DNA of 61,562 bases from Muribaculaceae bacterium (GTDB lineage Bacteria > Bacteroidota > Bacteroidia > Bacteroidales > Muribaculaceae), in the NCBI GenBank assembly GCA_017451225.1, contig JAFSPZ010000029.1:1-61562 (forward strand), written 5' to 3'. Below the pieces are notes generated by a model. It did not search any database. It worked only from the letters and a program-made list of their open reading frames with translations, and was not told the DNA's origin. The translations under genes and the position numbers were made by a program. Below are positions 24,578 through 32,390 of this stretch, one piece after another (within the stretch, counting starts at the first letter, position 1; every line of letters starts with the position of its first letter).

Positions 24578-24620
24578 AATCCCGTCGCTTGAGTTGTCTC
24601 TAGGCGACGGGATTTTTTAT
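24578..24620. terminator. Terminator ending the Sus operon
   Basis: An 11-bp perfect stem (24578-24588 with 24604-24614) with a 15-nt loop is followed by TTTTTTATT on the plus strand. The upstream AAAAA gives a T-run on the minus strand, so it may also stop the convergent small gene. Confidence 0.85.
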
Positions 24621-24805
24621 TCATCACTGGCGGCACGCTTGGTTTCGTGCTTGAAACGCCTGCGGGAATACTGCTTCTTGGACTTGTGCACGCGGTGAGT
24701 GGCAACCCATTGGCCGCCACCGTTGCGCTCCATCTGCTCGTTGCGTGAAATCATTTTAATGATTTTGTCCATCGAGTTGCTTTTAGTTGTTTTTGACTTT
24801 TTCAT
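24617..24805 (-). CDS. Small basic protein, conserved-looking, function unknown
   Basis: 62 aa and very basic (MKKSKTTKSNSMDKIIKMIS, then RNGGGQWVATHRVHKSKKQY, then SRRRFKHETKRA). The composition suggests RNA or ribosome association; no fold was recognised. Three observations support a real gene. A TAGCTTTG box lies at 24859-24852, overlapping the stop codon of the kinase gene. The gene ends in a bidirectional terminator. Its codon use is ordinary and it is not a shadow of another gene. An internal ATG (MDKII) 33 nt later is an alternative start. Confidence 0.55.
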   Translation of the reverse strand: MKKSKTTKSNSMDKIIKMISRNEQMERNGGGQWVATHRVHKSKKQYSRRRFKHETKRAASDE

Positions 24806-24851
24806 AATGTATAGTAGAGTCGTGGAATAGTAGTGGATGCAAAAAATGTGC

Positions 24852-24859
24852 CAAAGCTA
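24852..24859 (-). promoter_or_regulatory. -7 box for the small basic protein, inside the kinase stop
   Basis: TAGCTTTG on the minus strand begins with the TAG stop codon of the kinase gene. It predicts a leader of about 40 nt. No TTTG -33 element is clear. Confidence 0.5.
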
Positions 24860-26425
24860 TTGCTTAGGTTCGCCTGCAGATGGTAGGTTGTAGAACTCGT
24901 TGATTTTGTGAGGTTTCTTGTCGATGACGGGGCGAATTGAAAAGCCGTTGAGGACACCCTGGGGTTGGAAAGAAATCATGTCGCCAGTGATGATGAAAGC
25001 AAATAAAGATATGGCATTGTCCTCACCGTGAGGAAGGCGGGAGGCCGTCCAATAATATCCCTTGTCGCCTATCGAGAAATAACGGCGCTCGTAGCGGAAT
25101 CCCGCCAGTGGTAGGAAAATGGTGTTGCCGTTGGGTCCTGTGACAATATAACCTGGAATGGTGCCGGGATGGTCGATGAAAATCCACTGGCACTTGTCTA
25201 CGAGTTCCTTAAAATCTTCGATAAGAGGTAATCGCCACTTGCCACCCCACAGTTTGTGGGCCGCATCGAAGCGAGTGCCCTCGAAACTCTCGTCTCGGTT
25301 TGGCGAGTGGAAACCAAAGAAGTAGCCGTGAAGAACTGAGGAAGGATTCTCCATGCCGCCATTGATCATGATTCCAGGCATCATGAGGTTGGGAGATTTT
25401 GCTCCCACGTTGAACGGTGCCCAGTCGACGCTGAGCCCCATGTCGACCGCCTCGCTCTCGGGGATGTCGCAAGGGATTTTGTCGGTGCCAGGATTGGGCA
25501 TGAATACCGAAAATCTTTTTTCGGGTACATCAATGACCATGAGCGACGTGTCGCGAGTAAGAGCCAGACTGTCGCCTCGCTGCCAACCTGGGATTGAGCC
25601 ACGATGAGAAAAGGAGAGCGGCTGAGGTTTAAAGTCGAGGATTTTCAAGTTGTAGCCGATGAAGAAAGCTAAACAACTGAGCATGGCTGTTCCTATTATG
25701 GCGAGAGCCATCGTTTTCTTGTTCCAGCTTTTATTAGTGGCTTGATCGATCGCTTCCTGCAATTGCGACAGGGTACTGTATCTCAGAGTGCGATTGGCGG
25801 CAGTGGCTTTGGCAATTACGTCATCGTATTTCTTGGGCAAGTCCATGTCCTTCAGAATCATGCCTAGCGAGAAGATATCGGCTCTGGCATCAATGTCGTC
25901 ATTGGCGTCAAGAACCTCGGGGGCGGCATAATTGACGGTGCCCGCTGCTGCCTTGAGCGAGCTGTAGCTGTCGGTGTCGCTGAGTCCAAAATCGATGAGC
26001 TTCAGACAGTTGTCCTCGTGTGTGACCATGATATTGGATGGCTTGAGGTCGCGATGCACCACTTGGTTGTTGTGGCAATGAGCTATGGCTGCAATCAGTT
26101 GGAGCACAATGTTGAGCTTCTCGTCGAGAGAATGGGTGCTTTCGAGCCATTGTTGGAGAGTGGTTCCGTCGATCCACTCCTCGACGATGCATGTGCCGAG
26201 TTTTTCAATATTCTCGATGCTGACAACACCCACGATGTTTGGGTGATGCAGCTGCATGGCGATGTCAAACTCCTTGCGCAACAAGTCGTGGTAGAGCTTC
26301 TTGTCGGCCAGCTCGGGCTTGATGCCCTTGAGAAACCATAGCTTGCCAAAACGCTCGCCTTGCGCCAAGAGATTGAACTTCCCTTGTTGCTCAAGCAAAA
26401 CAATATTTTCAAATCTCTGTGGCAA
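24857..26425 (-). CDS. Transmembrane Ser/Thr protein kinase with FISUMP domain
   Basis: 522 aa. Kinase residues are complete: K33 (LWFLKG), E52, HRDLKPSN (D126, K128, N131), DFG (145-147) and APE (168-170). The glycine loop is divergent and the C-lobe is short. A membrane helix (about 238-258) leads to an apparently extracytoplasmic domain (about 335-510) of the FISUMP type: VDMGLSVDWAPFNVG, WGGKWRLPLIEDFKEL, IVTGPNGNTIFLPLAG, GYYWTAS. The cytoplasmic kinase would signal according to what the outer domain meets. The only plausible start is TTG at 26425, because a stop lies five codons before it and the next ATG is inside the kinase fold. It is 39 nt downstream of the pseudokinase gene. Confidence 0.85.
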   Translation of the reverse strand: MPQRFENIVLLEQQGKFNLLAQGERFGKLWFLKGIKPELADKKLYHDLLRKEFDIAMQLHHPNIVGVVSIENIEKLGTCIVEEWIDGTTLQQWLESTHSLDEKLNIVLQLIAAIAHCHNNQVVHRDLKPSNIMVTHEDNCLKLIDFGLSDTDSYSSLKAAAGTVNYAAPEVLDANDDIDARADIFSLGMILKDMDLPKKYDDVIAKATAANRTLRYSTLSQLQEAIDQATNKSWNKKTMALAIIGTAMLSCLAFFIGYNLKILDFKPQPLSFSHRGSIPGWQRGDSLALTRDTSLMVIDVPEKRFSVFMPNPGTDKIPCDIPESEAVDMGLSVDWAPFNVGAKSPNLMMPGIMINGGMENPSSVLHGYFFGFHSPNRDESFEGTRFDAAHKLWGGKWRLPLIEDFKELVDKCQWIFIDHPGTIPGYIVTGPNGNTIFLPLAGFRYERRYFSIGDKGYYWTASRLPHGEDNAISLFAFIITGDMISFQPQGVLNGFSIRPVIDKKPHKINEFYNLPSAGEPKQ

Positions 26426-26464
26426 GGAGTAGATGGGTTAAATGAGAAATAGATTATGCATTGA

Positions 26465-27901
26465 CTATTGAACAGGCCTTATTGCCATGAGTCGGTCGAA
26501 AGTGTCGGTTTGGTCGGCGATGATTTTGCCCTCGTCGAGAAGCACGTAATGTGCCATGCGTCTGCCATCGGCAGTTGGGGTTGATGTCCAATAGTAGCCG
26601 TATCGGCCTATGTTTTGCATATTGATGCCGTCGTCGCTCCATCCTGCCAGTGGCATGAAGATGCAATTGCCATTAGGTCCAGTGACCACATATCCCGCTG
26701 CTCCGTCGCCTGCATTGCGGAATTGCCACTTGCAGCGGTTAATGAGTTCTCGAAACTCCTCGATTGTGGGCATTCTCCACTTGCCGCCCCATCGCTTGCT
26801 TGCGAAGTCGATGTCGGTGCCGCTAATCGCCTTGGTGGGAACTGGCTTGTCTTGTGGCCAGTATTTGTCGAGCCCTCCCCACTTGGTGATGTCGGTGGTA
26901 TCGCCCCAGGCATAGTAACTACCCACGAAGTTGACCGACGGGTGATTGGCTCCCATGTTCATACGACTCCACTTCACGCTGAGCCCCAGGTCGACAGCGA
27001 TGGAGTCGGGGATGTTGCCTGGAGTGACCGAGTCGGGCAGGAGGTAATAAATATCGGAAAGAGAGATTGTGGAAAATACGAAATTGGCTGGTAGCTTGCC
27101 TGTGTCGACCACATATCCTTGAGGCAATTTTTTGCTGTCGGCTTGCTTTTGTCTGTTTCCCCACAAGAAAGTTGCTGCGATAGCGGCAAGAGCCACTAGC
27201 GCCATTGCTGCTGGCATGAGCCATCGCAAGTGATTTTTCTTGTGTGCGGCGGTGAATTCTTGGTGCAATGTGTGCGCTGAGTGGTATTTCCCCTGTTGGC
27301 AACGCTTAATCACCTTGTTGAACTTGCGTGGTAGCTGTAGCGCACTCAGCAGGAGGGCAAGAGCTGAGAAATCGGTTTGAGCTTCGGTGGCATCGGGCTC
27401 GAAATCGATGATTTTCACGCGCGAGCCGTTGTGGGTGATGAGTACGTTGCTAGGCTTGAGGTTGCCGTGCGTCACACCCTTGCTCATGTAGTAGCGCACA
27501 GCCTCTACAAGCTGGGTGGCGATATCCTGACGAACTTCGACAGTGGGGTCGGATGCTATAAATTTGTCAAGACTTGTGCCGTCGACCCATTCTTCGATGA
27601 TGCATCGCCCCTCCATGGTGGGAACTTCTTGCTGGGCTATCATGCGCACGATGCTTGGGTGCCACAGCGTCATGCCGCGCTCAAACTCGCGGTCGAGCAG
27701 CTGCTGCGCCTTGTTGCGAGGCTCAAACTGCGGGTTGACGCCTTTCACGACCCACCATTGTCCAAAGCGTTTCACCCGCTTTAGGCACAGCCATGGACGT
27801 TGACAAGGCAGGTCACTGAAGTCGGTGAATTGTGCTCCTATGTCGCCCTCCATGGGCTCAAAAAAGCTTGATGAGTTGTAAATGTTGCTACCGTCTTGCA
27901 T
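26465..27901 (-). CDS. Transmembrane pseudokinase with FISUMP domain
   Basis: 478 aa from an ATG. It has the same plan as the following kinase: kinase-like fold (about 30-215), helix (about 227-247, LRWLMPAAMALVALAAIAAT), FISUMP domain (about 300-475: VDLGLSVKWSRMNMG, RWGGKWRMPTIEEFRELI, VVTGPNGNCIFMPLAG, GYYWTST). The catalytic motif is HGN (145-147) instead of HRD, the magnesium motif is DFE (166-168) instead of DFG, and the activation segment with APE is gone. K53 and the KPSN residues remain. It should be catalytically dead and may bind ATP and control the adjacent active kinase. It has its own -7 box (27928-27921) and an inverted repeat upstream. Confidence 0.85.
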   Translation of the reverse strand: MQDGSNIYNSSSFFEPMEGDIGAQFTDFSDLPCQRPWLCLKRVKRFGQWWVVKGVNPQFEPRNKAQQLLDREFERGMTLWHPSIVRMIAQQEVPTMEGRCIIEEWVDGTSLDKFIASDPTVEVRQDIATQLVEAVRYYMSKGVTHGNLKPSNVLITHNGSRVKIIDFEPDATEAQTDFSALALLLSALQLPRKFNKVIKRCQQGKYHSAHTLHQEFTAAHKKNHLRWLMPAAMALVALAAIAATFLWGNRQKQADSKKLPQGYVVDTGKLPANFVFSTISLSDIYYLLPDSVTPGNIPDSIAVDLGLSVKWSRMNMGANHPSVNFVGSYYAWGDTTDITKWGGLDKYWPQDKPVPTKAISGTDIDFASKRWGGKWRMPTIEEFRELINRCKWQFRNAGDGAAGYVVTGPNGNCIFMPLAGWSDDGINMQNIGRYGYYWTSTPTADGRRMAHYVLLDEGKIIADQTDTFDRLMAIRPVQ

Positions 27902-27920
27902 ATAAGATTGTATTTGTGCT

Positions 27921-27928
27921 CAAAGTTA
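27921..27928 (-). promoter_or_regulatory. -7 box of the pseudokinase-kinase operon
   Basis: TAACTTTG on the minus strand predicts a start about 13 nt before the pseudokinase ATG. The -33 position lacks TTTG and instead falls in the first arm of a 15-bp inverted repeat, as expected for a regulated promoter. Confidence 0.6.
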
Positions 27929-27942
27929 CTCATATTTTTGAT

Positions 27943-27987
27943 TATAGCGCGCTGAGAACTATTTTTTTCAACTCTCAGCGCGCTATA
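27943..27987 (-). repeat. 15-bp perfect inverted repeat upstream of the pseudokinase
   Basis: TATAGCGCGCTGAGA (27943-27957) is repeated inverted at 27973-27987 around a 15-nt T-rich loop. On the minus strand no T-run follows, so it is a poor terminator for the preceding lipoprotein operon. It overlaps the -33 region of the kinase promoter, so an operator is possible. Confidence 0.7.
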
Positions 27988-28014
27988 AAAGGGATTTTTA
28001 TACCAAGTGTCTTA

Positions 28015-28497
28015 TTAAGGCAACTTGTTGACAGCGTTTCTTACATCTTCTTCGGTTGGTGCAAGATCGTTTGCAATCTTTTTGAAAGTCGAAGTGACTG
28101 TGCCTTCTTTCACCTTAATCTCGTTTTTGCTCTTATAGGTTACAGTGAGTTTGAAACCGTCATTGCTCTCGAGTTCCAAAACGTTCTTGGATTTAGCATG
28201 CCCTTGCATATAAATAACATTGTCGTTATATACATCATAGTAATAGGCCTCACAATGTGGCATACAGTATTGATCGTAGCCTTGTATACCAAGAATATAG
28301 TCATGGATTTGTCGCCCACCAGTTAGCTCTAATCTATAATAGAAAATGCCGCTATTGCCAGCATCGTTCTCTGAATATAGATTGACACCCGAAGATGCTT
28401 GTTGTACACTGTGTTTGCGTTTCTTGGCGCTCATTTCGGTTGTAGCACAGGTACCTAGCACCAGCACTGCCAAAAGGATTGTAAATAGCTTTTTCAT
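28015..28497 (-). CDS. Small secreted protein B of the duplicated cassette
   Basis: 160 aa from the ATG at 28497. The frame is open to 28557, but that would overlap the upstream gene, and the ATG starts an obvious signal peptide (MKKLFTILLAVLVLGTCATT). The first 30 residues are almost the same as those of the small secreted protein at 29321-29725 (MKKLFTIFLAVVVLGTCATA, both followed by xMSAKKR), while the mature parts differ clearly. The mature region is polar with beta-type segments (KLTVTYKSKNEIKVKEGTVT). No known motif is seen. It is last in a five-gene run and lies 29 nt after a BACON/DnaJ lipoprotein gene. Confidence 0.7.
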   Translation of the reverse strand: MKKLFTILLAVLVLGTCATTEMSAKKRKHSVQQASSGVNLYSENDAGNSGIFYYRLELTGGRQIHDYILGIQGYDQYCMPHCEAYYYDVYNDNVIYMQGHAKSKNVLELESNDGFKLTVTYKSKNEIKVKEGTVTSTFKKIANDLAPTEEDVRNAVNKLP

Positions 28498-28526
28498 GAT
28501 TGTTTGTTGTGATAATAATTTTAAAA

Positions 28527-29312
28527 TTACTGTCCAGTTCCGCCGCAGTCGGGGCACTTGATGCGTCCAGAGCCTTTTCTCCAGACACTTCCAGCATCAG
28601 TTGTCCCATCCCAATTGCCACCGCATTTTTCACAAGGTTGTTCGGAACCTACGATATCTCTCATTTCCGGTGCTACATAGACGTGTACTAAGCCTTTTCC
28701 ATTGCATTTGGGGCAGGTTATTTTGCCGCTGCCGCCGCATCGCTGGCACACGTTGCCCTTTTGAGTCGCATAGATTGTAGCGCTTTGGTCTTCGCAGGTG
28801 AGTTTTATCTCACCTCGCTTGGAGCCGGCTTCGTTGGCTGGAGCGGTAACTGAAAGTGTGCCGTTGTCGTAGGTGGCAGTGAAGCCCTCAGGAGCCTCGA
28901 CTTGCGGACTTCCGTCAGTGTCAATTGCAATTGTCTGTGTGCCACCTTCTTTATCAAACTCGACCTTGTCGCTTGCGGGAGTGATGTGAGTGCACTTGGT
29001 AGCTTGCTTCACATGGATGGTTGCTGTCACATCATCTTTTCCAGCGAGAACAATGTCGCCTTCGCGTGGGGCGCCGGTTTCGTTGCGCGCGGTCCTAATC
29101 AGGATCATGCCTTCTTGCGTTTCGGTAGTCACCCAATCGGGACAGTCTTTCACGCTCCAACTGCCGTCGGCAGTGACGCTCACGTTTTCTTCTCCACCCC
29201 CAATGGGGAACGAGATACTATTTTTGTCAACACAGATGTTGTTGGCTCCATTGCATGCGCTGAGAAAGAACATGAATAAAAAAGCCCAAAGTAAAAATAA
29301 TTGCTTCTTCAT
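28527..29312 (-). CDS. BACON-BACON-DnaJ-zinc-finger lipoprotein B
   Basis: 261 aa. The lipobox is FLSAC (Cys 20). Two BACON-type Ig-like domains follow (about 25-100, VDKNSISFPIGGGEENVSVT with SWSVKDCPDWV; about 101-184). The C-terminal 70 residues hold four CxxC motifs of DnaJ zinc-finger type: CQRCGGSG, CPKCNGKG, CEKCGGNW and CPDCGGTG. In DnaJ this domain binds two zinc ions and unfolded protein in the cytoplasm. Here it sits on an exported lipoprotein, which is unusual. BACON domains bind glycans or mucin-like ligands, by family knowledge. It is a close paralogue of the gene at 29762-30523 and is paired with a small secreted protein. Confidence 0.8.
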   Translation of the reverse strand: MKKQLFLLWAFLFMFFLSACNGANNICVDKNSISFPIGGGEENVSVTADGSWSVKDCPDWVTTETQEGMILIRTARNETGAPREGDIVLAGKDDVTATIHVKQATKCTHITPASDKVEFDKEGGTQTIAIDTDGSPQVEAPEGFTATYDNGTLSVTAPANEAGSKRGEIKLTCEDQSATIYATQKGNVCQRCGGSGKITCPKCNGKGLVHVYVAPEMRDIVGSEQPCEKCGGNWDGTTDAGSVWRKGSGRIKCPDCGGTGQ

Positions 29313-29320
29313 TTTTGTGG

Positions 29321-29725
29321 TTAATTAATATTTTGATTTAATTGAACATCCTTCTTATCCCATACTTTCCCTCTGAAATATCCATAAGGCACAGTTTTAG
29401 TTGAATAGAAATATCCATCAACTATTGTGTAACGATCGGGATCTTCTTTTTCCCACATGACAACCCGGCCGTCGCTCTTCATCTCGCCCACAAGGTTCAT
29501 CTCATCTTGTGGACTTTCAAGCTCCGCTTCAAGCCGATTTCCATTGCTGGACTCAATAAATAATTTAAAATAATTGTTAGAGAAAAACTGACCCATGTCG
29601 TTGGGGTTTTTAATGACTGTTCCGCTTGACGAGCGGCTTTTTGTGCGCTTTTTGGCACTCATGTCGGCGGTGGCGCAGGTGCCCAGCACCACCACTGCTA
29701 GAAAGATTGTAAATAATTTTTTCAT
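29321..29725 (-). CDS. Small secreted protein A of the duplicated cassette
   Basis: 134 aa. The signal peptide (MKKLFTIFLAVVVLGTCATA) is nearly identical to that of the small protein at 28015-28497, followed by a basic Ser-rich linker (MSAKKRTKSRSSSGTV). The mature domain (about 45-134) is beta-rich and charged (NRLEAELESPQDEMNLVGEM, then KSDGRVVMWEKEDPDRYTIV). No known family is recognised. It starts 36 nt after the stop of lipoprotein A and ends 8 nt before lipoprotein B, so the order lipoprotein-small-lipoprotein-small reflects duplication of a two-gene unit. The mature parts of the two small proteins have diverged much more than the lipoproteins. Confidence 0.7.
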   Translation of the reverse strand: MKKLFTIFLAVVVLGTCATADMSAKKRTKSRSSSGTVIKNPNDMGQFFSNNYFKLFIESSNGNRLEAELESPQDEMNLVGEMKSDGRVVMWEKEDPDRYTIVDGYFYSTKTVPYGYFRGKVWDKKDVQLNQNIN

Positions 29726-29761
29726 GATTGTTATTGTTTTTTAAAGATGAAATAATTCTTT

Positions 29762-30523
29762 TTAGTGACCAGTGCCACCGCAGTCGGGACACTTAACGCG
29801 ACCAGAGCCCAATTTAAGGCTGCCATCATCTTTGCCCGAGCCACCACAGTCACTACAACCATAGTCATCCTCCCAGTCATCAGAGTAAGCATGAGTGACA
29901 TATCCTTTACCGCCGCATGATTTACATTTCACCTTTCCGGTGCCTCGACAGGTGGGACAGATGCTGCCTTTTTGAGATGCATAGATTGTAGCACTCTGAT
30001 TGTCGCAGGTGAGTTTTATCTCTCCACGTTTGGCTCCTTCCTCGTTAGTAGGAGCAGTCACTGAAAGCACACCGTCGGCAAAAGTGGCAGAGAATCCATC
30101 AGGCGCCTCGACGTTGATGTTGCTACCGTCGGTGTCGATGTTAATGGTCTCGGTTCCACCTTCTTTTTCAAACTCCACCTCGTCGCTTGCAGGGGTGATG
30201 TGAGTGCATTTCGAGAATTGCTTGACGGTGATAGTTGCCTCCACGTTGCTCTTCCCTTGCAGGACAATATTTCCTTCGCGCGCAGCGCCTGTCTCGTTGC
30301 GCTCGGCTTTGATAATGATTACGCCTTCCTGTGTCTCGGTCTTCACCCAGTCGGGACAGTCCTTTACGTTCCAGCTGCCGTCGGCTGTGACGCTTACATT
30401 CTCTTCGCCACCATCTATGGCAAACGAGACACTGTTTTTATCAACACTGATGCTGCTGGCTCCTCCACATGCGGTTAGAATCAGCAATAGTAAAGTTGAA
30501 AGTGAAAATAATAAATATTTCAT
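29762..30523 (-). CDS. BACON-BACON-DnaJ-zinc-finger lipoprotein A
   Basis: 253 aa. The lipobox is LILTAC (Cys 19). Two BACON-type domains (VDKNSVSFAIDGGEENVSVT with SWNVKDCPDWV; then HITPASDEVEFEKEGGTETI) are followed by a DnaJ-type zinc finger with four motifs (CPTCRGTG, CKSCGGKG, CSDCGGSG, CPDCGGTG). The sequence is highly similar to the lipoprotein at 28527-29312 across BACON domains and fingers; the spacer between the second and third Cys pairs differs most (here YVTHAYSDDWEDDYG). Outer-surface or periplasmic location is inferred from the signal. A redox or zinc-dependent role in folding exported proteins is one possibility; glycan adhesion is another. Confidence 0.8.
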   Translation of the reverse strand: MKYLLFSLSTLLLLILTACGGASSISVDKNSVSFAIDGGEENVSVTADGSWNVKDCPDWVKTETQEGVIIIKAERNETGAAREGNIVLQGKSNVEATITVKQFSKCTHITPASDEVEFEKEGGTETINIDTDGSNINVEAPDGFSATFADGVLSVTAPTNEEGAKRGEIKLTCDNQSATIYASQKGSICPTCRGTGKVKCKSCGGKGYVTHAYSDDWEDDYGCSDCGGSGKDDGSLKLGSGRVKCPDCGGTGH

Positions 30524-30539
30524 AAATATAAATATATGA

Positions 30540-31214
30540 TTATCTTATTATCACTGCATTATCACATCTGTTAAATACGCCAGGTGCAATATAAGCATTT
30601 TTATTTTGCACATAGACATGACGAAGATTTCTACAACCTTCAAAAGCATTGTCTATAATATTAATACATGATGAGGGAATAACAACTTCTCTTAGTGAAG
30701 TGCATTCATAAAACATACCTTGAACAATACATTCTAGAGTGTTAGAAATAGTGACTTCCTTTAAATTTGTGCAAAGCATGAATACATTTATGCCAAGAAT
30801 GTTTACAGAGTTGGGTATAACAATTGAAGGCAACTTTGTACATTCAATGAATGCACTGGTGCCTATTGCTGTTACTGAGTTAGGTATTGAAACATAAACT
30901 AAGTTTCTGCAATTGTCAAAACCATGACTGCCAATAGACTCGACGGTGTTAGGTATAATTACTGAAGTGACCTCCATACACCTTTGAAATGCCGACCTGC
31001 CTATAGCGGTTACAAGATAGTTTTTCCCATTATATTCTACTGTTTGGGGAATAACAATATCACCACGATATTTTACTCGGTCGGAATGTGTAACAGAAAC
31101 AGTTGCGCCACAACTGTTTATATCATAGGCAATACCATTTTTTATAAAATCTTCGGCATTACTGCTGAGATTAAATAATAGTGTAAAAGTTAGGATAGAA
31201 AGAATTTTCTTCAT
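30540..31214 (-). CDS. BspA-like leucine-rich repeat protein, secreted
   Basis: 224 aa. A signal peptide (MKKILSILTFTLLFNLSSNA) is followed by a short lead domain and about six BspA-type repeats of about 23 residues (TSVIIPNTVESIGSHGFDNC, LVYVSIPNSVTAIGTSAFIE). Unlike the large LRR genes elsewhere in the window it has no dockerin, cohesin-like or Por sorting tail, so it is probably periplasmic or released. It is A+T-rich and is the first protein gene behind the promoter at 31540-31571, with BACON lipoprotein A following after 16 nt. BspA repeats mediate protein binding. Confidence 0.8.
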   Translation of the reverse strand: MKKILSILTFTLLFNLSSNAEDFIKNGIAYDINSCGATVSVTHSDRVKYRGDIVIPQTVEYNGKNYLVTAIGRSAFQRCMEVTSVIIPNTVESIGSHGFDNCRNLVYVSIPNSVTAIGTSAFIECTKLPSIVIPNSVNILGINVFMLCTNLKEVTISNTLECIVQGMFYECTSLREVVIPSSCINIIDNAFEGCRNLRHVYVQNKNAYIAPGVFNRCDNAVIIR

Positions 31215-31224
31215 GATTGTTTTA

Positions 31225-31534
31225 AGTTAAATCGTTCAAAATATTTATAAATAGAAGCGAGGTGCGAGCCTTGTTTTTTGCGTCGTGGGCTTGTGGGCTC
31301 TGGACTGCCTGGTGACCACGAGAAAAACAGCTCACACCTCTATGCTGGTGCGCCACAGGGTATTGCCTATGTAACGAATCCTTGCTTGTAGAGGGCGGCG
31401 TCAGTTTCTCATTCCGTGTCACCTAAGTGAATTGTCCAGATTCACAAGCCGTGGAATGGGAGCTAAACGCTTCCTTGAAAAAATGTATATGCGATGGTGC
31501 TTTCAGCCGCTCTTGGCACTACGTTTTGCCACCG
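31225..31534 (-). ncRNA. Structured non-coding RNA or long 5' leader, class unknown
   Basis: Starting from the minus-strand promoter at 31571-31540, about 300 nt are untranslated and strongly folded. Hairpin 1 nests two stems: 31410-31415 with 31453-31458, enclosing 31427-31432 with 31440-31445. Hairpin 2 is an 82-nt imperfect rod: 31259-31264 with 31335-31340, 31266-31269 with 31330-31333, 31273-31278 with 31323-31328, and 31284-31288 with 31316-31320. Composition is more G+C-rich than the flanks. I see no tmRNA T-arm, SRP GGAA loop or RNase P core. A 6S-like RNA, or a leader controlling the LRR/BACON operon that begins 10 nt further on, remain possible. The 3' end is uncertain. Confidence 0.5.
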
Positions 31535-31539
31535 CATTG

Positions 31540-31571
31540 CAAAGTTAGGGAAAAAACTCCAAACGGGCAAA
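31540..31571 (-). promoter_or_regulatory. Consensus promoter of the structured RNA / BACON operon
   Basis: On the minus strand TTTG (31571-31568), a 20-nt spacer and TAACTTTG (31547-31540) match the Bacteroidetes consensus perfectly. Confidence 0.8.
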
Positions 31572-31808: not shown

Positions 31809-32390
31809 ATGGTCAAAGAATCTATAATAATATCCGAAATTAAGATTCAACTTCTTGCGCTTCGCAGTCAGGTTGAAGAGAAGGTGGGTAGGGCGCTACG
31901 TCTTCCGAGTGACTTTGAACTACTTGCTCGCAATGTTGCCGAAGTTACTGGTGAGCACATCTCTACTAATACCTTAAAGCGCTTGTGGGGATACCTTGAG
32001 GGTTACCGCACAAGCCGCCGCTTCACGCTCAATGTGCTTTCACGATATGTGGGATTTAGGGATTGGGAAGACTATTGCATGAATTTATACCAGAATGCTT
32101 CGTCTCAGATTTTTGACACACAGCACATTGACAGTGAGAGTCTGACAGTCGGTACTAAACTCACTCTTCGTTGGCATCCCGACCGTGTTGTGAAATTAGA
32201 ATATAGGGGTGACAACGAATATGTAGTGCTTGAGTCGCATCGCGCTAAGCTCACCGCTGGCGACACATTCAAATGCCAGGGTTTTGTTCCTGGACAGCCA
32301 TTGGTTATCAATGGGTTATTACACAAAGGTATAGACCATCCCATTAATTATATATGCGGCAAGCAGGGTGGGATTGAAGTTGTTGTTTAA
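31809..32390 (+). CDS. Bacteroidales-type DNA-binding regulator (putative)
   Basis: 193 aa. The N-terminal half (about 20-95) is helical with a likely helix-turn-helix: LPSDFELLARNVAEVTGEHI followed by STNTLKRLWGYLEGYRTSRR and LNVLSRYVGFRDWEDYC. This block is familiar from uncharacterised Bacteroidales proteins. The C-terminal half (about 105-193) is a beta-barrel-like domain (GTKLTLRWHPDRVVKLEYRG) that could bind a ligand or protein. It is transcribed divergently from the structured RNA and BACON operon, so it is a candidate regulator of that locus. The role as transcription factor is inference. Confidence 0.6.
   Translation: MVKESIIISEIKIQLLALRSQVEEKVGRALRLPSDFELLARNVAEVTGEHISTNTLKRLWGYLEGYRTSRRFTLNVLSRYVGFRDWEDYCMNLYQNASSQIFDTQHIDSESLTVGTKLTLRWHPDRVVKLEYRGDNEYVVLESHRAKLTAGDTFKCQGFVPGQPLVINGLLHKGIDHPINYICGKQGGIEVVV

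Follow-up and report, generated by a model that had tools for sequence, protein, structure and literature searches.

What do the receptor-like kinases encoded among envelope genes of the Bacteroidales act upon? The question is raised by the window analysed here, the whole 61,562-nucleotide (nt) contig JAFSPZ010000029.1 (C64) of a Muribaculaceae bacterium, whose draft genome (GCA_017451225.1) comprises 2.28 Mb in 70 contigs and is 85.5% complete. On the minus strand, genes for a leucine-rich-repeat (LRR) protein, two lipoproteins and two small secreted proteins are followed by those for a transmembrane pseudokinase and a transmembrane kinase. The preliminary description of this region took pseudokinase, kinase and lipoprotein to be the parts of one envelope signalling locus. 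Our analysis supported a signalling locus as such, but not in this three-part form: the truly conserved partner of the kinase was o193, a protein of 193 amino acids (aa) encoded on the plus strand (31809-32390) across the divergent promoter, which that description had left uncounted. From its sequence, the whole locus looks like a cell-envelope signalling switch. We propose that the kinase and its dedicated partner o193 form a Bacteroidales signalling module that would act on nearby envelope operons, and we put the probability of this reading at about 0.5.

The o193 gene was spotted in the annotation of relatives as an open reading frame (ORF) just outside the described locus, recurrently located by kinases. 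In a set of 81 genomes (labelled Gnnn; distribution counts are from the matches listed), o193 homologues were found at 61 places in 29 genomes. A kinase match was present no more than 4.6 kb from o193 at 52 of the 61 places and no more than 1.5 kb away at 43, with 0.6 expected (distances were measured from start to start of the matches). Among the 53 o193 genes for which a kinase ORF was picked in the fetched loci, 42 were on the strand of the kinase; 32 of these preceded it, 26 of them within 100 nt. An order-wide survey detected o193 matches at 1e-10 in 74 of 393 genomes: in 22 of the 74 the match was the N-terminal part of a frame of 776-895 aa, one per genome, and in others that of a frame of roughly 410-475 aa. 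When 29 order-wide loci (L265-L293, three of which repeat places of the 81-genome survey) were examined, a kinase was present within 1.5 kb in 23; of the remaining six, one (L288) had a FISUMP-profile protein.

Furthermore, o193 and the kinase varied together. From 51 loci of known genome, 48 pairs in 25 genomes had both genes picked, the best-scoring kinase domain of each locus being used. The distance matrices of o193 and of the kinase domain were correlated with a Mantel r of 0.83, which was reached by none of 2000 free shuffles (largest 0.17) and by none of 5000 shuffles of partners within genomes (largest 0.65), indicating that the paralogues have kept their own partners. The proteins are diverse: of the 46 that were aligned with the o193 of the window (A6), 42 were only 23-42% identical to it. 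That the pairing was maintained across such divergence supports a working pair of o193 and kinase.

Several observations weigh against the proposed module. Congruent trees can arise through joint duplication without function, and this explains part of the co-variation. In the window itself, 3.9 kb separate o193 from the kinase pair on the opposite strand, unlike the tight pairs found elsewhere; the pair-type loci of six relatives (L072-L077) are likewise divergent, with o193 and the kinases 2-5 kb apart. Nine of the 61 o193 places had no nearby kinase. Six of these were G040:C50, G000:C17, G025:C18, G017:C115, G042:C35 and G040:C214, the last at a contig end; at G001:C1 (L203) a PP2C phosphatase adjoined o193, which speaks for the module, and at G058:C128 and G072:C7 the match was in longer proteins (820 and 826 aa). 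Conversely, 55 of the best 75 kinase matches had o193 within 4.6 kb and 20 did not, though these 20 include the kinases of the window and of G001, which fall slightly past the distance limit. The o193 link is therefore a property of one group of kinases rather than of kinases in general. A further point concerns the DNA-binding role that we infer for o193. Matches to helix-turn-helix families were weak (HTH_26 at 0.0049 in one of 47 proteins; HTH_33 at 0.046 and Put_DNA-bind_N at 0.028 in two each), and families that are not of this type or are uncharacterised scored better (SpoVIF at 5.6e-4 in one of 47, DUF1580 at 0.0042 in two). A profile search found no significant PDB match to o193; the best (0.015) was Parp14, to the C-terminal half, and the best to the N-terminal part (0.047) was a transposase, again not significant.

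o193 consists of an N-terminal domain, residues 1 to about 95, with the patterns ST(L/I)KRL-G and TL--LARY-GY--W, and of a C-terminal part. No signal peptide was evident, and the protein is presumably cytoplasmic. Read from its sequence pattern, the N-terminal domain looks like a helix-turn-helix, while no significant Pfam match to o193 was obtained. Six PHROGs families were considered for its identity and rejected, each matching a single protein of the 47, at 0.03 or weaker. The lack of a significant DNA-binding match would fit a different role, in which o193, instead of regulating transcription, serves the kinase as adaptor or inhibitor and the output is post-translational. The N-terminal domain also occurs in the 776-895-aa proteins of 22 genomes noted above; two such long proteins were scanned, of which one (G072:C7) gave a weak NACHT/STAND match (2.2e-4, under the cut-off) and the other (G058:C128) none at 0.01. 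Because it is part of large, weakly STAND-like proteins, the domain may be one for protein contact. Against this stands the divergent placement of o193 before envelope operons at several loci, which is typical of regulators, and we consider the adaptor role somewhat unlikely. Long frames bearing the domain lie at L202 (3598-6060) and L204 (1574-4054).

The kinase of the proposed module (24857-26425, minus strand, with a TTG start) has an intact catalytic set (HRDLKPSN, LIDFG and APE) and is preceded by a pseudokinase (26465-27901, minus), where HGNLKPSN and DFE stand in place of HRD and DFG. It matched Pkinase (PF00069) with 124.8 bits against a cut-off of 31.7 (E 5.2e-36); the pseudokinase matched at E 3.3e-14. 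By fold and catalytic motifs the kinase is a Hanks-type Ser/Thr kinase. K33, E52, H124, N131 and D145 were invariant in 43 aligned kinases, the pseudokinase included. HGN with DFE was kept in all eight close loci (the window, L072-L077 and L080), and a pattern search did not find it in L086 and L087, which are more distant. One hydrophobic span follows the kinase domain in the window, and by a simple rule a hydrophobic run was present there in most kinases of the set. All 43 kinases scanned matched Pkinase, and eight of them also carried BspA-type LRR_5 repeats. Four LRR-carrying kinases (L166, L197, L201 and L177) were scanned singly, and in each the repeats lay beyond the kinase domain. Thus the ectodomain of the o193-linked kinases varies, being FISUMP-like in some and of BspA-LRR type in others. 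The FISUMP assignment in the window is below the curated threshold: PF09603 scored 18.9 bits on the pseudokinase against a cut-off of 33.9, and on the kinase no match was found up to E 1. A profile built from the C-terminal part of the pseudokinase matched the kinase, indicating a domain common to both, which by sequence may be a divergent member of FISUMP.

The kinase also matched the PADLOC models PD-T4-6 (1.8e-41) and mad6 (1.8e-37), as would be expected if it were used by a phage-defence or other conflict system, and the occurrence of the o193 N-terminal domain in large, partly STAND-like proteins would agree with this. However, the best stretches of these matches were confined to the kinase domain, the score against NCBIfam MAD6 was 92 bits with a curated cut-off of 460, and the other six proteins tested gave no PADLOC match at 0.01. 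A known defence system (PD-T4-6 or MADS) was rejected on these grounds, and a role in conflict in general appears very unlikely.

What, then, would the kinase and o193 control in the window? The genes proved to be arranged as the preliminary description had claimed, seven minus-strand ORFs with short gaps. The secreted BspA-type LRR protein (30540-31214; PF13306 LRR_5, 1.3e-50) is the first gene after a leader RNA and is followed by lipoprotein A (29762-30523), with BACON domains, a lipobox and four CxxC motifs resembling a DnaJ finger, small secreted protein A (29321-29725), lipoprotein B (28527-29312), 68% identical to lipoprotein A, and small secreted protein B (28015-28497, with its ATG at 28497), all on the minus strand. 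The gaps between these five genes measured 16, 36, 8 and 29 nt, in line with the 8-36 nt that had been given. Small protein B is separated from the pseudokinase by 113 nt, which hold a 20-bp hairpin (27942-27988; -27.8 kcal/mol, z -6.9) and then a TAACTTTG element (27921-27928), both on the minus strand and both retained in L072. Since this gap with its hairpin and element precedes the kinase pair, the seven genes probably form two units, a five-gene cassette led by promoter and RNA and then the kinase pair, and probably not the single run first assumed; a seven-gene operon was put aside in view of the hairpin and the -7-type element, though not disproved. Termination at the hairpin and a second start before the pseudokinase are, judged from these elements, only likely, because a clean U-tract is missing from the hairpin, and the full two-part promoter pattern from the element. 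After the kinase there is a Lys/Arg-rich ORF of 62 aa (24617-24805, minus), without a Pfam match and 87% identical in L072, followed by an inverted repeat read in the sequence.

The domain readings of the locus mostly stood. LRR_5, BACON and Pkinase were above their Pfam cut-offs, and the DnaJ finger was, like FISUMP, below. BACON (PF13004) scored 43.8 and 39.8 bits in the two lipoproteins against a cut-off of 25 (E 2.6e-11 and 4.5e-10), and together with the lipobox (LTAC/LSAC) this identifies them as BACON lipoproteins, while the DnaJ central domain (PF00684) reached 25.0 and 19.4 bits against 32.7 though four CxxC are present. They had been called surface lipoproteins. An acidic signal for surface export at residues +2 to +6 has been described for the phylum, though from families other than this one (PMC5080379). 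In the eight lipoproteins that could be read, these residues were GGASS, NGANN and similar, none with two acidic ones, and since this signal was absent, the lipoproteins more likely face the periplasm.

In that description the lipoproteins or small proteins were the ligands of the paired FISUMP receptors, all seven genes making up one system. Co-occurrence of pseudokinase, kinase and lipoprotein was the check that it named. Among the matches listed, the kinase pair was found in seven of the 81 genomes (G000, G001, G015, G028, G030, G040 and G042), and a lipoprotein adjoined it in only two, G000 and G030; the five without it include G040, where the first gene is present only as its C-terminal end on the contig and the neighbourhood of the pair is thus cut. 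The six relatives with the closest pseudokinase (L072-L077, 72-86% identity) are metagenome-assembled genomes that carry the labels Muribaculaceae, Prevotellaceae or Bacteroidales; the titles of two name water-buffalo rumen or omasum. All six have the kinase pair and one, L072, has the lipoprotein, though the two sets of relatives overlap, L073 and L076 being the same places as G042:C11 and G001:C133. Moreover, the L072 cassette is without the LRR gene and without one lipoprotein at the corresponding place, and in the window the hairpin divides the two units. The kinase pair is thus kept without the cassette; independent occurrence in most relatives had been named in advance as the finding that would make the adjacency accidental, and as a fixed unit the three-part system does not hold. 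By these sequence comparisons, the lipoprotein cassette is not an obligate part of the kinase-pair locus. On the other side, L072 and L080 retain pair and cassette at the corresponding locus, with small protein A 87% identical in L072 and small protein B 97% identical in L072 and 68% in L080. Of the eight lipoprotein clusters counted in G000, G030 and G040 (E < 1e-40), five had an o193 or kinase match no more than 4.6 kb away, with about 0.2 expected. Weaker matches, such as a 51-aa piece of 59% identity at the start of G000:C29, were left out of this count. The five represent three distinct types of place, the window corresponding to G030:C1 and G000:C12 to G030:C33, although the last two differ in orientation, and the remaining three are near contig ends (G000:C61 at the lipoprotein, G030:C50 at 1.7 kb, G030:C26 at 2.5 kb). 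The link between the parts is therefore loose rather than accidental: the cassette adjoins the pair in two of seven genomes, and yet five of eight clusters lie by a kinase or o193. That the lipoproteins or small proteins are ligands of the receptors, in one seven-gene system, seems to us improbable.

Alternative neighbours occupy the space from o193 to the pseudokinase, or adjoin o193, in L073-L077 and L086. A family of 310-325 aa (MTLKVLKE-IKGKRIDRVAG) was observed at the kinase-pair locus of all six, the one copy scanned having no Pfam match, and another of 234-276 aa in L075, L076 and L086.

The divergent operon of the window, which o193 would control under the proposed module, begins with a structured RNA of about 280 nt. 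As had been claimed, it is real and is preceded by a promoter, TTTG-N20-TAACTTTG at 31540-31571 (minus), a pattern which we take to be the consensus of Bacteroidota-type promoters. The window holds four matches to it with 1.5 expected, and nine of 100 shuffles reach four, so the promoter scan alone is not significant and its weight rests on the place before the RNA. The RNA has a 5' hairpin (31427-31445, minus) with the loop UCUGGAC (31434-31440) and a 3' domain (31240-31341, minus; fold z -4.65), a long hairpin with the apical loop AGUCCAGA (31299-31306) and a terminator-like end; the two loops are the halves of a kissing pair. The stretch 31215-31570 was conserved in L072, L074, L075 and L080. 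Other genomes showed weaker conservation, in several cases near kinase loci. Six members folded singly had z-scores of -2.7 to -5.6.

A model (R1) found further members, of which 25 were retained, and a second model (R2) was derived; these searches scored 50 of several hundred candidates per genome. Short R1 matches in L227, L230, L233, L234, L235 and L238 were dropped as plain terminators having no kissing partner. L223, where a 7-nt partner was found with the loop at another site of the domain, was likewise not aligned, and L075 and L226 were kept, their kissing pick being obtained under the final rule. Under this rule, 22 of the 25 members gave a pick for a hairpin loop that lies upstream and is complementary to the apical one. 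UCUGGAC/GUCCAGA occurred in ten members; UCUCGCA/UGCGAGA, UCUGGUA/UACCAGA and UCUGGAA/UUCCAGA in two each; AUAGGAC/GUCCUAU, CUUUGGA/UCCAAAG, CUUGGAC/GUCCAAG and UCUGCAA/UUGCAGA in one each. L075 was paired at six of seven positions and L220 was a misfit; L215, L218 and L219 gave no pick by the rule, and TCTCGAC/GTCGAGA could be read by eye in these three and in L220. Shuffled upstream sequence equalled the pick in 0-7 of 200 shuffles in every row but that of L220 (43 of 200). RNAalifold, run unprompted on the first eleven members, paired the same columns and gave both-sided changes in six of 21 pairs, one of them within the kissing stretch, indicating compensatory change. Most members have a U-run in the 3' hairpin domain. 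Rfam covariance models gave no match to the leader RNA in the window or at the loci of 17 members.

In all 24 members with enough sequence (one at a contig end being omitted), the first downstream ORF of at least 90 aa was on the strand of the RNA, in 23 of them within 470 nt. The distance was 1034 nt in L236, where a 345-aa frame on the opposite strand, not counted by the rule, overlaps the RNA. By a crude rule, 16 of the 24 ORFs begin with a stretch like a signal peptide or transmembrane segment. Since the downstream genes differ between places, the RNA behaves like a leader. Proteins with CxxC or a zinc-ribbon look recur after it (L248, L250, L237). One, in another family, is a 498-aa protein with DnaJ-like CxxCxGxG repeats (L245, G051:C52, 1490-2986; BSD2_CRD 1.8e-9), which is encoded downstream of the RNA at a place where o193 and kinase adjoin. 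G064, a genome of another family, had 16 R2 matches, several of them strong, and there the RNA may be multi-copy or mobile.

R2 matched at E 0.01 in 55 of the 81 genomes, the weak matches including plain terminators. Eight of its 40 best matches, not all of which were verified, had an o193 or kinase match at up to 5 kb, with 0.4 expected. This count is biased, as R1 had been seeded with seven of the eight and R2 with all of them; without three that came from loci fetched for o193 (G005:C39, G034:C33, G048:C186), it is five of 37. The other 32 of the 40, and the genes after the RNA that vary by place, would suit independent neighbours, namely a kinase/o193 module and an RNA-led operon that are separate and share a permissive site by descent and exchange. 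To this must be added, as a further point against the proposed module, that the RNA was found at five of the ten pseudokinase/kinase loci with o193 (the window, L072, L074, L075, L080) and not at the other five (L073, L076, L077, L086, L087). Against mere neighbourhood stands the closeness beyond chance of both the RNA (8 of 40 against 0.4) and the lipoprotein clusters (5 of 8 against 0.2), although several places are orthologous and R1 was seeded with seven of the eight that have the RNA. We regard independent neighbours as an unlikely explanation.

A second RNA motif was observed at some of these loci. DUF805b RNA (RF02914) adjoins the kissing RNA without overlap in L229 (G051:C52, 1455-1489, minus) and lies within the operon divergent from o193 in L155 (4874-4909, plus). 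The divergent leader upstream of o193 in L073-L077 has a DUF805-like string (CCGAAA...GAGTAGG), without a match at the curated Rfam score. By pattern search, such a motif was present at ten of 60 o193 loci, in nine of which it stood upstream, on the strand opposite to o193, at a distance of 198 to about 2400 nt.

For the kinase and o193 as a dedicated module, the sequences show the linkage of the genes, the co-variation, the catalytic motifs, the RNA pairing and the position of the RNA ahead of same-strand genes; beyond these, we infer the following course. The ectodomain of the kinase, FISUMP-like here and of BspA-type LRR at some loci, would receive an envelope signal, and the kinase-dead twin kept alongside would probably tune the kinase. 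The kinase would then act on o193 by phosphorylation, and o193 would bind DNA and switch nearby envelope operons, in the window the divergent LRR/lipoprotein operon and perhaps others. The transcript of this target starts with the structured RNA, whose terminator-like hairpin would be paired by its kissing loop to the upstream hairpin, and which may thus be a second control point, likely an attenuator or other leader control. A bolder generalization is that the Bacteroidales possess a second sensor system free of histidine kinases, made of Ser/Thr receptor kinases with exchangeable ectodomains (FISUMP, LRR), their own co-evolving o193 regulators and sometimes a pseudokinase twin, with output via a new class of leader RNA whose kissing loop opens or closes a terminator; we consider this doubtful.

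If the pairing holds, uncharacterised Ser/Thr kinases of the Bacteroidales gain a definite partner and hence a testable substrate, receptor-like kinases with LRR ectodomains would be shown in bacteria, and a structured RNA family would be added which occurs in many of the Bacteroidales genomes searched and leads mostly envelope genes. A link between the DUF805b motif and the kinase/o193 loci is possibly of interest. A limited open-access search, which is no proof, found neither the pair nor the leader RNA named in the literature, and the available main text of two reviews has no word beginning with "Bacteroid" (PMC6213207, PMC4601284).

How does this system compare with known ones? DUF805b RNA (RF02914) is, like the leader RNA, found upstream of genes at o193 loci (two of them) and is of cis-regulatory type in Rfam, but it is a 35-nt motif distinct from the leader of the window, which matches no Rfam family. 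Two-component systems consist of a sensor kinase and a cognate, adjacent partner, in paralogous pairs. The kinase and o193 likewise form cognate, adjacent and paralogous pairs, but the kinase is Hanks-type, and no histidine kinase or receiver domain was found by Pfam at E 1 in kinase, pseudokinase or o193. PASTA-type kinases (PknB/StkP) share the kinase fold and the single membrane span; the kinase of the window has no listed PASTA domain and carries a FISUMP-like ectodomain, replaced by LRR in some relatives. The nearest precedent is PknH-EmbR, one of the kinase/transcription-factor pairs treated in a review (PMC4601284). There, a transmembrane Ser/Thr kinase acts on a DNA-binding partner, and by analogy the kinase and o193 may work in this way, a likeness that we infer for the window. 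However, the OmpR-type DNA-binding domain and the FHA domain of EmbR are not matched significantly by o193 in Pfam, and the pair is therefore not a member of that system. It differs further in occurring as up to several co-varying pairs per genome, whose ectodomains differ and which in some cases include a pseudokinase twin.

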